This document shows positions 40,691 to 45,541 of a stretch of DNA of 64,000 nucleotides, one piece after another; the first letter of the stretch is position 1, and every line of letters starts with the position of its first letter. The position numbers were made by a program, and so were the translations under genes. Origin of the DNA: Aquincola tertiaricarbonis. GTDB taxonomy: Bacteria > Pseudomonadota > Gammaproteobacteria > Burkholderiales > Burkholderiaceae_C. Under the pieces are notes generated by a model. It was not told the origin of the DNA. It saw only the letters and a program-made list of their open reading frames with translations, and searched no databases. The stretch covers positions 1 through 64,000 of the forward strand of contig NZ_JZUE01000001.1 in assembly GCF_000969605.1 (NCBI RefSeq). The letters run 5' to 3'.

Positions 40691-40700
40691 TGGCCACGTG

Positions 40701-41708
40701 ATGCGACTGGACGCGCAGGCACCAGGGGCCATCGAGGCCGCGGCGCAGCGACTGGCCGCTGGCGAGCTGGTGGCCTTTCCCACCGAGACGGTGTACGGCC
40801 TGGGCGCCCGGGCCGACGTGGACGAGGCTGCCGCGCGCATCTTCGCGGCCAAGGGCCGGCCCACCGGCCATCCGCTGATCGTGCATGTGGCCGACGTGGC
40901 CGGCGCCGCCGCCTTTGCAGGGCACTGGCCGCCGCTGGCGCAGCGCCTGGCCGAGCGCTTCTGGCCCGGGCCGCTGACGGTGATCGTGCCGCGTGCCGAG
41001 GGCATCGCCGCCACGGCCGCGGGCGGCCAGCCCACGGTGGGCCTGCGCTGCCCGGCGCATCCGGTGGCCCAGGCGCTGTTGCGGGCCGCGGCGGCGCAGG
41101 GCGTGCGTGGCGTGGCCGCGCCCAGCGCCAACCGCTTCGGCCGCGTCAGCCCCACCACGGCCGAGCATGTGCTTGCGGAGTTCGGCGACGACATGACGGT
41201 GCTGGACGGCGGCGCCTGCGGCGTGGGCATCGAGTCGGCCATCGTCGATTGCTCCCGCGGCATGCCGGTGCTGCTGCGCCCCGGCATGCTCACGGCGGCG
41301 GAGATCGAGGCGGCTGCCGGCCAGCCCCTTCATGCGCCTGATGCGGCGGCGCCGCGCGCCTCGGGCACGCTGGCATCGCACTACGCACCGCAGGCCAAGG
41401 TTCGGCTCATGCCGGCGGCGGCGCTGCGCGATGCGCTGCAGGTGTTCGGCCAGGCCGCCAAGGCCGGCAACACCCGCACACCGGGCGGCAAAACGCTGGC
41501 GGTATATTCCCGCACCGTGCCCGCCGGCACCGCTGCCGTGCTTCACCGGCGCATGCCGGACGACGCCGCCCGCGCCGCGCAGCAGCTGTTTGCGACGCTG
41601 CGCGAACTGGACGCCGCCGGCGTCTCGCTGATCTGGGTGGAACAACCGCCACCCGGGCCCGAATGGGACGGCGTGCGCGACCGCCTGCAACGGGCCGCGG
41701 CCGAATGA
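40701..41708 (+). CDS. L-threonylcarbamoyladenylate synthase (Sua5/TsaC type)
   Basis: 335 residues: a YrdC domain (1-200) with AAGELVAFPTETVYGLGARA and FAAKGRPTGHPLIVHV, then a C-terminal Sua5 domain (about 225-335), so it is the long Sua5 form rather than short TsaC. It makes threonylcarbamoyl-AMP for the t6A37 modification of ANN-decoding tRNAs. Its pathway partner TsaB is encoded 2.6 kb downstream (44260). ATG 40701 is chosen over an in-frame GTG three bases earlier. Confidence 0.95.
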   Translation: MRLDAQAPGAIEAAAQRLAAGELVAFPTETVYGLGARADVDEAAARIFAAKGRPTGHPLIVHVADVAGAAAFAGHWPPLAQRLAERFWPGPLTVIVPRAEGIAATAAGGQPTVGLRCPAHPVAQALLRAAAAQGVRGVAAPSANRFGRVSPTTAEHVLAEFGDDMTVLDGGACGVGIESAIVDCSRGMPVLLRPGMLTAAEIEAAAGQPLHAPDAAAPRASGTLASHYAPQAKVRLMPAAALRDALQVFGQAAKAGNTRTPGGKTLAVYSRTVPAGTAAVLHRRMPDDAARAAQQLFATLRELDAAGVSLIWVEQPPPGPEWDGVRDRLQRAAAE

Positions 41709-41736
41709 ATCCCGCACCCTTCTCAACGGAGAACCG

Positions 41737-42657
41737 ATGAATTTCAAGTTTGTATGGCGCGGCGCTGCTGCCCTGGCCGTGGCCGCGCTGCTGTCCGCGT
41801 GCGGTGGCGGGCAGGTGGACGAGTTCAAGCCCAAGCGCATCATCGCGTTTGGCGATGAGCAGAGCCTGGTCACCGCCGACGGCAAGAAGTACAGCGTCAA
41901 TCTCGCCCCCACCACCGACACCACCGACCAGGAATGCCGCACCTACCCGGTGTGGACGCAGATCGTGGCGGCCGAGTTCGGGCTGTCGTTCCCAGGCTGC
42001 CGGGTGGCCGGCGCGGCCGACAACGGCGTGATGAAGGCCACCGCCAATGCCAAGGTGGAAGACTTTGCGCGGCAGATCACGGAGATCAGCAGCACCTTCA
42101 CCGACGACGATCTGGCTACCGTGATGGTGGGTACGCACGACGTGCTGGAGCAGTACGCGCTGTATGACGGCAACAACAAGGCCGCGCTCCTGGCCGAATT
42201 GAAGGCACGCGGCACGCATTGGGGCGAGCTGATCAACTCGATCGCCAAGGCAGGTCCTCGTGTGCAGGTGGTGACCATCCCCGACCTGGGATTGGCACCG
42301 CGGTTCAAGACTCAATCGGCTGAACGCCGGGCCGTACTCACCGAACTCGTCGCCGCATACAACCTGGCGATGCGTCTGGCGCTGATCCAGGACGGCCGCA
42401 TGATCGGCCTAGTGTTCGGTGATATCGAAATCCAGCAGATGGTGCGCTACCCCGGCAGCTACAGCCTGAGCAACGTCGACACCGCGGTCTGCAAAAATGC
42501 GCTGCCCGACTGCACCACGGAATCCGTCATCGACGCCGTTACCCAAAGCGACCCCGTCACCGAATTCCTGTGGGCTGACGACATCCGCCCCGGCATCGAG
42601 TTCCACGACCGCCTGGGCGACCTGGCCTACTACCGCTCGAACAACAACCCGTTCTGA
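41737..42657 (+). CDS. SGNH/GDSL-like lipoprotein with degenerate active site
   Basis: 306 residues with a lipoprotein signal (lipobox LSAC, mature Cys 22). The fold markers of SGNH hydrolases are recognisable but altered. Block I reads IIAFGDEQSLV, with Glu at the nucleophile position of GDSxS. Block III reads VMVGTHDVLEQY, with His where Asn is usual. Near the C-terminus FLWADDIRPG stands where DxxHP is expected, with Arg for His. It therefore looks like a membrane-anchored non-hydrolytic relative, or a variant chemistry. GGAG (41726-41730 region) precedes the ATG. A terminator follows. Confidence 0.75.
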   Translation: MNFKFVWRGAAALAVAALLSACGGGQVDEFKPKRIIAFGDEQSLVTADGKKYSVNLAPTTDTTDQECRTYPVWTQIVAAEFGLSFPGCRVAGAADNGVMKATANAKVEDFARQITEISSTFTDDDLATVMVGTHDVLEQYALYDGNNKAALLAELKARGTHWGELINSIAKAGPRVQVVTIPDLGLAPRFKTQSAERRAVLTELVAAYNLAMRLALIQDGRMIGLVFGDIEIQQMVRYPGSYSLSNVDTAVCKNALPDCTTESVIDAVTQSDPVTEFLWADDIRPGIEFHDRLGDLAYYRSNNNPF

Positions 42658-42680
42658 CCGGCACGCCGGCTGGATCAAGA

Positions 42681-42703
42681 GGGCCGCGTCAGCGGCCCTT
42701 TTT
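42681..42703. terminator. Rho-independent terminator between convergent genes
   Basis: A 7-bp stem GGGCCGC/GCGGCCC (42681-42687 with 42692-42698, loop GTCA) followed by TTTTT (42699-42703). It ends the SGNH-like lipoprotein gene. The dacB stop codon begins at its last base, so it may also serve dacB less well. Confidence 0.8.
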
Positions 42704-44181
42704 CATGGCGTGGCCGCGGAGGCGTCGCGCAGCGTCCACTGCACCAGCGCATCGAAGGCGGGCCGCGCGGCGGCGGCGTTCGGATGGTTGACGATGGCCA
42801 CCAGCAGGTAGCGCCGGCCGCTGTCGCCCAGCACGTAACCGGCCACGCCGGCCACGTCGCGCAGCGAACCGGTCTTCAGGTGCGCGCGACCGGCCGCCAC
42901 CTGGGAGCGGCGCAGCGTGCCGTCGGTGGCCGAGGCCGGCAGCGAAGCCACCAGGTCGGGCATCACCGGGCTGCGCCAGGCCGCCTGCAGCAGCCTTGCA
43001 AGGACATCCGCCGTCAGCCGTGTCTCGCGCGAGAGGCCCGAGCCGTTGTCGATCAGCAGCTCGCCCATCGGCGTGGCGTCCACCCGCAGGCGCTCGGCCA
43101 TCCAGCGCTGCAGCACCAGCCGCGCGGCCTCGGGCGTGCCCTGGCCGCCGCGCTCCAGCCCCAGCGTGAGGAAGAGCTGCTGCGCCATCGTGTTGTTGCT
43201 GAACTTGTTGATGTCGCGCACCACCTCGGCCAGCGGCGGCGACTCGAACACGAAGGAGGGCGGCGTGGCGCTGGGCGCCGGGCCATGGCGCACGCTGCCG
43301 GTCAGGCGGCCACCCGCCTCGGCCCACAGCTGGGCGACCAGCCGGGCCGCATACGTCTCGGGCGCGGGGTCCGCCACCGGCCACTGGCGCTCGCCGCAGG
43401 CCGCGGGGTAGCGGCCCTCGAAGCGCACCTGCGCCGGCTCGTCGAAGCGCGGCTTGAGGGCGGCGCGCCAGTCGCCGCAGGCGCCGGTGGTGGCCAGCGG
43501 CGCCTCGGCCTGCACGCGGGTGCCCGCCAGCGCGGGCTCGGCGGTGATGCGTACCACGCCGCGCGGCGGGTCGGGCACGAAGCGGTAGTTCACCGTCTTC
43601 TGGTTCAGCAGCAGCGCATCGGCCCGCACGTTGTAGGGTCGCAGCGGCTCGTTGTCGAAGTCGGCCGGCTGCATGCGCGGCGGCGCGAAGGCTTCGTTGT
43701 CCAGCACGATGTCGCCGCGGATCTCGCGCACGCCGGCTTGCTGCACCCGCCGCAGCAGCAGCCACAGGCGTTCCAGCACCAGCTTGGGGTCACCCCGGCC
43801 CTGCAGGATGAGCGAGCCCGTCAGGACGCCGTCCTGCACCTCGCCGTTGATCCACACCGGCGTCTGCCAGGCCCAGGCCGGGCCCAGCAGGTCCAGCGCG
43901 GCGTAGGTGGTAAGCAGCTTGGTGAGCGAGGCCGGGTTCACCGCCCGCTCCGCCTGCCAGCGCAGGCGTGGCTGCGGCGTGGGCGGCGGACCCACCTCCT
44001 CGATGACCACCGACAGCGCCTCGGCCGGAATGCGTTCACGCTGCAGCACGGCAGCGGCTTCGGGTGGCAGCACGGCCGAAGACTGCGCCAGGGCCGGCGC
44101 CCCCAGCACGAGCCAGCAGGCTACCAGCCAGGCCCGCGCGGGCGCTGCGGATCGGCGCGGGCAGGGCGTTTGGGAAGGCAT
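42703..44181 (-). CDS. dacB: D-alanyl-D-alanine carboxypeptidase/endopeptidase (PBP4)
   Basis: 492-residue periplasmic class C penicillin-binding protein that trims peptidoglycan cross-links. A signal peptide (AWLVACWLVLGAPALAQ) is followed by the catalytic set: SLTK at 85-88 (Ser85, Lys88), FSNN near 325 and HLKTGSL near 430, in correct order with the insert domains of PBP4 between the first two. Length is close to the E. coli enzyme (477). Divergent from tsaB with a 78-bp gap. Confidence 0.96.
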   Translation of the reverse strand: MPSQTPCPRRSAAPARAWLVACWLVLGAPALAQSSAVLPPEAAAVLQRERIPAEALSVVIEEVGPPPTPQPRLRWQAERAVNPASLTKLLTTYAALDLLGPAWAWQTPVWINGEVQDGVLTGSLILQGRGDPKLVLERLWLLLRRVQQAGVREIRGDIVLDNEAFAPPRMQPADFDNEPLRPYNVRADALLLNQKTVNYRFVPDPPRGVVRITAEPALAGTRVQAEAPLATTGACGDWRAALKPRFDEPAQVRFEGRYPAACGERQWPVADPAPETYAARLVAQLWAEAGGRLTGSVRHGPAPSATPPSFVFESPPLAEVVRDINKFSNNTMAQQLFLTLGLERGGQGTPEAARLVLQRWMAERLRVDATPMGELLIDNGSGLSRETRLTADVLARLLQAAWRSPVMPDLVASLPASATDGTLRRSQVAAGRAHLKTGSLRDVAGVAGYVLGDSGRRYLLVAIVNHPNAAAARPAFDALVQWTLRDASAATP

Positions 44182-44246
44182 GCGGGGATCATCGCACGCA
44201 CCCCGGCGAGTGCCCCCGCGGTGCCGGGCGCCACGGGGGGTTCACC

Positions 44247-44252
44247 TACACT
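44247..44252 (+). promoter_or_regulatory. -10-like TACACT, leaderless start for tsaB
   Basis: TACACT is followed by seven bases (GGGCGCC) and the tsaB ATG. No Shine-Dalgarno is present, so a transcript starting at the usual distance would begin at or next to the ATG. Confidence 0.4.
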
Positions 44253-44259
44253 GGGCGCC

Positions 44260-45027
44260 ATGTCGTCGTCGCCCATCACCGCGTGCCCCCCGCACGCCGA
44301 GGCCACCGCCGCCTCGCCTGCCCTGCTGGCCATCGACACCTCCACCGAACGCCTGGCCGTGGCCGCGCAGGCCGCCGGCCGCCAGTCCGGGCTGGACGAG
44401 CCGGGCGGCGCGCTCGCCTCCGCCCGGCTGCTGCCGGCAGTGCAGGTGCTGCTGGCGCGGCTGGGCACGCGCATCGGTGCGATGGATGCCATCGCCTTCG
44501 GCCGCGGCCCCGGCGCCTTCACCGGCCTGCGCACCGCCTGCGCGGTGGCGCAGGGCCTGGCGCTGGGTGCGGCCAGGCCGGTGCTGCCGATCGACAGCCT
44601 GGCCATCGTGGCCGACGATGCCCGCGCGCAGCTCGGCAGCAGCGCGCCCGACACCATCACCGTGGCGATGGATGCGCGCATGAACGAGGTTTACGCCGCC
44701 ACCTACCGCTGGGCCGATGGCCGCTGGCACACGGTGCAGCCGCCCGCCTTGTGGCCGCTGGCGCTGCTGGCCGCGCAGTGGCGGGACCAGCCGCCCGCCT
44801 GCATCGCCGGCTCGGCGCTGGTGGCTTTCGCCGACCAGCTGCCCACCACCGGCGCCACCTGCGTGCCGGCCGAACACGACCGCGCCGCTGCGCTGCTGCG
44901 GCTGGCACTGCAGGCCTGGCATGCCAGCGAGGCCATCGACCCGGCGCTGGCCCTGCCGCTGTACCTGCGCGACAAGGTGGCGCAGACCACGGCCGAGCGC
45001 GAGGCCGCCAAGGCCGCCCTGGCATGA
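44260..45027 (+). CDS. tsaB: tRNA threonylcarbamoyladenosine synthesis protein TsaB
   Basis: 255-residue ASKHA-fold protein (YeaZ), scaffold for TsaD in t6A formation on tRNA. LLAIDTSTERLAVA at the start, IAFGRGPGAFTGLRTACAVA and TVAMDARMNEVYAATYRW are diagnostic. It begins the tsaB-rimI-udg operon, a common arrangement in Burkholderiales. The first 20 residues are an extra leader relative to the family; the ATG at 44260 is backed by the -10-like element just upstream. Confidence 0.95.
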   Translation: MSSSPITACPPHAEATAASPALLAIDTSTERLAVAAQAAGRQSGLDEPGGALASARLLPAVQVLLARLGTRIGAMDAIAFGRGPGAFTGLRTACAVAQGLALGAARPVLPIDSLAIVADDARAQLGSSAPDTITVAMDARMNEVYAATYRWADGRWHTVQPPALWPLALLAAQWRDQPPACIAGSALVAFADQLPTTGATCVPAEHDRAAALLRLALQAWHASEAIDPALALPLYLRDKVAQTTAEREAAKAALA

Positions 45028-45040
45028 GGAAAGCCCCGCG

Positions 45041-45541
45041 ATGAGCGCACGCCTCCAGGCCGCCGAGCCGCAAGCACCGCTGCAGTTCCGCCCGATGACG
45101 GTGCCCCTGCTGGACGCCGTGGCCGCCATCGAGCAGCAGGCCTACGCCTTCCCGTGGTCGCGCGGCAACTTCATCGACTCGCTGGCCGCCGGCTACAGCG
45201 CCACCGTGCTGCAGGCGGCCGATGGCGAGCTGATCGGCTACAGCGTGGCCATGCAGGGCGTGGACGAGGTGCACCTGCTCAACATCACCGTGGCGCCGCG
45301 CTGGCAGCGCCGCGGCCATGGCCAGGCGCTGCTCGACGAGGTGGTGGCCCAGGTGCGTGCCGCCGGCCTGCCCACGCTGCTGCTGGAGGTGCGCACCAGC
45401 AACGACGGCGCGCGGCTGATGTACGAGCGCGCCGGCTTCCTGCACATCGGCCAGCGCAAGGGCTACTACCCCGCGCCGCATGGCCAGCGGGAGGACGCCT
45501 TCGTCATGGCCCTGGCCGTGGAGCCGCGCGATGTGGACTGA
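45041..45541 (+). CDS. rimI: Ribosomal protein S18-alanine N-acetyltransferase RimI
   Basis: 166-residue GNAT acetyltransferase. The acetyl-CoA binding motif A is VAPRWQRRGHGQALLDEVVA, and LLEVRTSNDGARLMYERAGF is typical of RimI. It acetylates the N-terminus of S18 in E. coli. GAGGAAAG (45026-45033) precedes the ATG, which lies 13 bp after tsaB. Its end overlaps the uracil-DNA glycosylase gene by 11 bases. Confidence 0.92.
   Translation: MSARLQAAEPQAPLQFRPMTVPLLDAVAAIEQQAYAFPWSRGNFIDSLAAGYSATVLQAADGELIGYSVAMQGVDEVHLLNITVAPRWQRRGHGQALLDEVVAQVRAAGLPTLLLEVRTSNDGARLMYERAGFLHIGQRKGYYPAPHGQREDAFVMALAVEPRDVD

Follow-up and report, generated by a model that had tools for sequence, protein, structure and literature searches.

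A lipoprotein of predicted SGNH fold with a replaced nucleophile, conserved behind tsaC/Sua5 in a group of Burkholderiales

The window analysed here, a stretch of 64,000 nucleotides from Aquincola tertiaricarbonis, encodes a lipoprotein that carries the conserved sequence blocks of SGNH hydrolases, with residues other than Ser, Asn and His at three of the catalytic positions. The question raised by this locus is why a cell would keep an esterase that has lost its nucleophile, and whether the gene is decaying, has acquired another chemistry or serves a role without hydrolysis. The initial annotation, made from the letters of the DNA, had interpreted the three replacements, set among intact blocks and behind an intact lipoprotein signal, as a sign of a selected non-hydrolytic role rather than of decay, and had considered a conserved family of proteins with GDE in block I to be possible. 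The features of the locus are listed in Table 1.

Table 1. Features of the lipoprotein locus in the window (residue counts refer to the 112 rows of clade A, the clade of the window protein)
Feature	Position	Strand	Remarks
tsaC/Sua5 (L-threonylcarbamoyladenylate synthase)	40698..41708	+	TIGR00057 above cut-off; ends 28 nt before the lipoprotein gene
Non-catalytic SGNH-fold lipoprotein gene (fold predicted)	41737..42657	+	ORF, ATG start, 306 aa plus stop
Signal peptide and lipobox LSAC (residues 19-22); Cys22 the lipidation site, Gly at +2	41737..41802	+	Sequence reading
Block I GDEQS, residues 39-43; Glu41 codon 41857-41859 at the Ser nucleophile column	41851..41865	+	E in 109/112
Block III GTHD, residues 132-135; His134 codon 42136-42138 at the oxyanion-hole Asn column	42130..42141	+	N 96, H 9 of 112
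Block V DDIRP, residues 281-285; Asp281 kept; Arg284 codon 42586-42588 at the catalytic His column	42577..42591	+	His 20, Arg 25 of 112
C-terminal NNPF, end conserved in clade A	42643..42654	+	P305 in 108/112, F306 in 101/112 rows
Hairpin AGGGCCGC-GTCA-GCGGCCCT then TTTT, GC-rich, between convergent genes; possible terminator	42680..42703	.	By eye
dacB (PBP4 family), convergent neighbour	42703..44181	-	TIGR00666 above cut-off

The lipoprotein and its predicted fold

A protein search found the lipoprotein gene in a single copy in its own genome, which contains just two further SGNH-like frames, both on other contigs. The N-terminal signal with its lipobox Cys, recognized by reading the sequence, places the product among the lipoproteins, and the predicted model of the window protein contains an N-terminal helix at residues 7-20. 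The lipobox is followed by three glycines (LSAC-GGG). Having Gly at +2, and not Asp, is consistent under the Lol rule with export to the outer membrane, in which the protein may be anchored. As regards a mobile origin, no match to the protein was found in PLSDB by tblastn (plasmid carriage), nor among the PHROG families at E 0.01 (phage origin).

A phmmer comparison with the sequences of the PDB gave a single match (E 0.24), and two Pfam profiles were matched below their thresholds: PF13472 (E 2e-5, 25.6 bits, threshold 32.9) and PF00657 Lipase_GDSL (E 2.5e-4, 21.7 bits, gathering cut-off 23.6). The structure model was built from an alignment of 72 sequences, in which the window protein was accompanied by 62 relatives of the same kind and 9 intact paralogues, and it reached a mean pLDDT of 92.2 and a pTM of 0.88; the model of an intact paralogue, predicted from a 13-row alignment, was poor, with a pLDDT of 69.9. 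As modelled, the domain of the window protein is a complete SGNH fold, with the three-layer architecture extending over its whole length (VIA Z 25.3 to 8hwp, 233 residues, rmsd 3.0). Foldseek gave the Vibrio thermolabile hemolysin as the best PDB match (E 8.6e-12), followed by a fungal GDSL esterase and ChoE, among others. Over model residues 24 to 306, VIA-align scored Z 25.3 for the Photobacterium GDSL esterase and Z of about 24 for thermolabile hemolysin, PlaA and ChoE. Among the matches listed, the folds nearest to the model appear to be those of lipid and choline esterases.

The alignment with relatives bears out the original reading of the catalytic positions: Glu41, His134 and Arg284 stand at the columns of the block I Ser, the block III Asn and the block V His, respectively, and the lipobox with Cys22 as well as the blocks GDEQS, GTHD and DDIRP can be read in the ORF. 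The block V Asp (Asp281) is present, and so is the Gly of block II (Gly97), in a column called block II from the alignment only. As the Ser, Asn and His typical of SGNH hydrolases were looked for and found to be absent, we describe the window protein as SGNH-fold and do not file it as an SGNH hydrolase.

Relatives and the fate of the catalytic positions

Of 150 genomes sampled within the window's GTDB family, 113 contained relatives (protein search, E 0.001). With the single protein as query, an initial scan of GTDB contigs found no relative; an alignment built from close relatives, run against the GTDB representatives, yielded 71 loci, which by NCBI ranks belong to Sphaerotilaceae (49), Comamonadaceae (2) and Burkholderiaceae (2), or have no family rank (18). 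An order-wide sample of 250 genomes gave matches in 26 at E 1e-10, and 22 of these genomes lie outside the GTDB family. The 23 frames inspected (22 outside the family and 1 inside) all had GxND and DxxHP, so no non-catalytic member was seen among them at this threshold.

The pooled SGNH frames comprised 224 rows after the removal of 16 identical rows and one short row. A FastTree tree divided them into three groups: clade A with the window protein (112 rows), its sister clade B with mostly Gly or Ala at position 41 (54 rows), and clade C, composed mostly of intact paralogues (58 rows). The clade A gene is retained as a single-copy orthologue in the Roseateles-Rubrivivax-Leptothrix group of Burkholderiales, and clade B belongs to the same GTDB family.

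At position 41, clade A has E in 109 rows (D 1, S 1, gap 1), whereas clade B has G 31, A 17, S 5 and D 1, and clade C has S 57 and D 1. Position 134 is occupied in clade A by N 96, H 9, Y 2, W 2, K 1, Q 1 and S 1, in clade B by S 34, A 10, T 2, H 2, N 1 and other residues, and in clade C by Asn throughout (58/58). The block V Asp is D in 48/112 rows of clade A, 52/54 of clade B and 57/58 of clade C. The His position holds L 41, R 25, H 20 and other residues in clade A; His is found there in 7/54 rows of clade B, where Tyr prevails (44), and in 57/58 rows of clade C. The conservation of the Asp and the substitution of Tyr for His in clade B indicate that this site does not drift throughout. Column 97 in clade A has G 62, A 39, S 7 and others 4. 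The window protein has a further His (H290) at a second His column, which carries His in 38/58 of the intact paralogues of clade C.

The lipidation site Cys22 is kept in 111/112 clade A rows, and the Cys columns 67, 88, 252 and 259 in 110 to 111 of 112; Cys252 and Cys259 are common to all clade B and C rows. The second Ser of block I (S43) is present in 94/112 clade A rows. As for an alternative triad, the alignment of clade A shows no other conserved Ser-His pair. A second triad built from other residues was rejected at the level of sequence, since His never exceeds 49/112 rows in any clade A column.

Several side observations were made in these alignments. One clade A row (L043:2385-3431:+) has Ser41, His284 and Gln134 and lies beside an intact paralogue; it may represent a regain or an early branch. 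Ser41 also occurs in 5/54 clade B rows, 2 of which have His284 as well, and none of the six Ser41 rows (1 in clade A, 5 in clade B) carries the block III Asn. The signal peptides of clade B (e.g. L064:2280-3230:- and L203:2807-3682:+) have Arg-Arg before the hydrophobic stretch, with R7 invariant and R8 in at least 90% of 28 rows, and so resemble a twin-arginine export signal; clade A does not show this motif. The intact clade C neighbours fall into a GDSLSD type, which has GxND, and a GDSLAD type, which has a shorter loop and GGGND (examples of clade C are L074:9076-10242:+ and L115:8311-9441:+).

The relationship of the clades was examined in a rooted tree of 79 rows, i.e. 25 A, 20 B and 22 C rows sampled together with 12 order-level SGNH outgroup sequences. 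Clades A and B fell together on one side of a branch with an SH-aLRT of 99.6, and clade A alone had 99, both values coming from a quick method without bootstrap. Two C rows were placed among the outgroup, one outgroup row within C, and one B row apart from the other 19. In the larger tree, midpoint-rooted without an outgroup, B joined C instead, with a support of 0.66. The rooted tree is most simply read as one loss of the Ser that preceded the split of A from B; the rows with Ser41 may instead point to its repeated loss or regain.

Nei-Gojobori dN/dS values were computed with our own script for pairs with dS 0.05 to 1.5; the high G+C content may distort them. In clade A the ratio was below 1 in all 22 independent pairs (range 0.067 to 0.62), and five pairs of clade C gave 0.061 to 0.413; in clade B no pair was close enough. 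When changes were counted on the tree, clade A had 2 at Glu41, 16 at position 134, 32 at the Asp and 42 at the His position, with a median of 30. Glu41 belongs to the 6% least changing of 278 clade A columns, along with G39, D40, G132 and D135. The same four catalytic columns changed 0 or 1 times each in clade C. In clade B, the counts were 16 at position 41 (median 17.5), 2 at the Asp and 10 at the His position. These counts suggest that constraint in clade A has moved away from the base and the Asp to rest on Glu41, and that in clade B it did not settle at position 41.

With Glu41 in 109/112 clade A rows, the replacement of Ser by Glu goes beyond chance. The claim that the hydrolytic residues are lost is supported, with no other complete triad visible by sequence. 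The initial annotation is right in outline, but the three changes are not conserved together: Ser to Glu is fixed, the Asn is kept in most of clade A and the His position drifts. The window protein shares its His at the Asn column with 9/112 clade A rows and its Arg at the His column with 25/112.

The locus behind tsaC/Sua5

Counted over distinct rows whose flank was long enough, the gene immediately upstream, on the same strand, is tsaC/Sua5 in 104/106 cases in clade A and 50/53 in clade B (117/119 and 50/53 when identical rows are included). The 111 sampled genomes in the tree comprise 54 with A, 54 with B and 3 with C only, and none of them has both A and B, or two of either. From the position behind tsaC/Sua5 and the absence of a genome with both, A and B are most simply regarded as one gene in two lineages.

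The suspected family with GDE in block I is supported by the conserved Glu41 and the shared locus, and selection instead of decay is favoured by the same locus together with the dN/dS values. We conclude that the window gene is probably a conserved orthologue that works as a non-enzyme and has not decayed; a working non-enzyme is preferred over decay because the relatives keep their copy in the same chromosomal place.

On the other side of the gene, a convergent dacB was present within 4.5 kb in 44/106 A and 32/51 B distinct rows tested, many of which have short flanks. An intact clade C paralogue of the GDSLSD type lies 3' of the gene in 22/108 distinct A rows (the window included in the count) and in 25/51 B rows, in tandem in A and convergent in 24/25 of the B cases. 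The window gene and 85 further distinct clade A rows have no intact paralogue adjoining, and the window as a whole contains none. In a plain Fisher test, which ignores relatedness, an intact neighbour in clade A was associated with the kept block V residues (p 0.028 for His284, 0.0005 for Asp281); in clade B the Fisher test gave no association. For His284 the link to the neighbour in clade A vanished in a sign test that used 6 independent pairs (median p 1).

By NCBIfam, the neighbours in the region are purE, purK, tsaC, PBP4 (dacB), tsaB, rimI and a family 4 uracil-DNA glycosylase. Within 40698-45538 of the window the lipoprotein gene and dacB lie between two genes of the tRNA t6A pathway, tsaC and tsaB, the latter followed by rimI; we do not claim a functional link to the lipoprotein. 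A pattern scan of the region, the hairpin at 42680-42703 included, reported no promoter-like and no terminator-like site.

Proposed role and comparison with known systems

Comparison with relatives shows the replaced nucleophile, the relaxed general base, the orthology and the purifying selection, and the model adds the fold. On this basis we lean towards the view that the product is an SGNH-fold lipoprotein and former serine hydrolase, in which Glu41 lies in the oxyanion hole and the pocket serves as a non-hydrolytic binding or docking site. Its ancestor would have been an esterase resembling the intact paralogue that adjoins the orthologues in some relatives. In a Vibrio relative with bound lauric acid (PMC10412561), three groups hold the carboxylate of the ligand: two NH groups, one of the Ser of block I and one of a Gly, and the Asn of block III. 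A Glu at the Ser position could put its own carboxylate there. The Glu41 carboxylate would then occupy the oxyanion hole, where the carboxylate of the fatty-acid product sits in the solved relative, and would be held by the side chain at 134, which is Asn in most relatives and His here. The old acyl pocket would bind without cutting, and what docks there may be an acyl ligand of the envelope or else a partner protein. A possible hydrogen-bond donor is present at 134 in all 112 clade A rows, and the sole Asp41 of clade B occurs in the row with the sole Asn134. This argument from donors is weak: clade B often has a donor at 134 as well, and Asp41 is paired with Asn134 in a single row.

A more daring version, which we put forward as a doubtful possibility, is that Glu41 might be a built-in product mimic: it would fill the protein's own oxyanion hole and so lock the acyl pocket in a product-bound state for sensing or docking, the sister lineage having solved the loss otherwise. 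That lineage, whose gene occupies the same locus, combines Gly or Ala at 41 with a small residue at 134.

Other explanations have to be weighed against a non-hydrolytic binding site. The protein might be a non-catalytic partner (a chaperone, allosteric subunit or decoy) of an active SGNH paralogue next door, as the intact paralogue following 22/108 A and 25/51 B distinct rows could suggest. We consider this unlikely, since the window gene and 85 other distinct clade A rows have no such neighbour, the two other SGNH-like frames of its own genome lie on other contigs, and the kept block V His is unlinked to the neighbour once relatedness is allowed for. An enzyme with a new chemistry, with Glu41 as nucleophile, base or metal ligand, would agree with the position of Glu41 among the least changing 6% of clade A columns. 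Such an enzyme is nevertheless very improbable: clade A has no conserved His column, its block V Asp is D in only 48/112 rows, and in the orthologous clade B position 41 is Gly or Ala in 48/54.

Even less credit is given to the idea that ester hydrolysis persists, weakly or by means of other residues. The fold and the general pocket are kept in the model, and degenerate triads can work, as exemplified by the Ser-His-chloride triad described for a relative, VvPlpA (PMC10412561); VvPlpA, however, retains the Ser and the His, both of which are replaced in the window protein. Moreover, S43 is the second Ser of block I, and no His column rises above 49/112. The least probable explanation is a decaying gene on its way out. 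Three catalytic positions are indeed altered here, and the His position lies above the median column in changes, but the open frame, the lipobox, the four Cys columns (110 to 111 of 112) and the C-terminal end are kept, dN/dS is below 1 in 22/22 independent pairs, and the gene stays in the same place across the family.

The non-hydrolytic reading has practical consequences. The PF00657 cut-off was reached by 3/4 other clade A rows, 3/3 clade B rows and 3/3 clade C rows tested; because members of both non-catalytic clades reach this GDSL cut-off, databases are likely to annotate the window gene as a hydrolase despite its missing nucleophile. The locus also offers a natural comparison, i.e. one chromosomal place with two nucleophile replacements and, in some genomes, an intact paralogue alongside, so that the reason for keeping a dead esterase can be tested directly. 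A literature search on SGNH pseudoenzymes, GDSL lipoproteins, Burkholderiales, Sua5, ChoE and Oskar, with subscription journals mostly outside its scope, brought up nothing on such a bacterial family.

Among known systems, the PF00657-type GDSL esterases, i.e. the Photobacterium J15 esterase, Vibrio thermolabile hemolysin/VDLT, PlaA, ChoE and the EstA passenger domain, resemble the window protein in the modelled whole-domain fold (VIA Z 22 to 25), the order of blocks I, II, III and V, and the block V Asp. The window protein differs from them in its replaced Ser, Asn and His and in being a lipoprotein, with 15 to 22% identity in the alignments listed, and it may work like a lipid-binding relative of these esterases. 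With the intact paralogues of clade C it shares the lipobox, the block spacing, Cys252 and Cys259, and an aromatic C-terminal end; in contrast to it, clade C keeps the Ser (57/58), Asn (58/58), Asp (57/58) and His (57/58). Clade B is similar in its locus behind tsaC/Sua5 (50/53), its common branch with A and the lost nucleophile, and the Asn is lost in B as in the window protein. It differs from clade A in Gly/Ala41, a small residue at 134, Tyr at the His position, the kept block V Asp, the lack of Cys67 and an RxRW end.

The OSK domain of Oskar binds RNA. Unlike the window protein, it is eukaryotic, fused to an OST-HTH domain and not a lipoprotein. OSK is described as an SGNH domain with disrupted Ser and His, likely enzymatically inactive and lipid-binding (PMC2848206), and no closer precedent for a dead SGNH domain came up in the literature searched.
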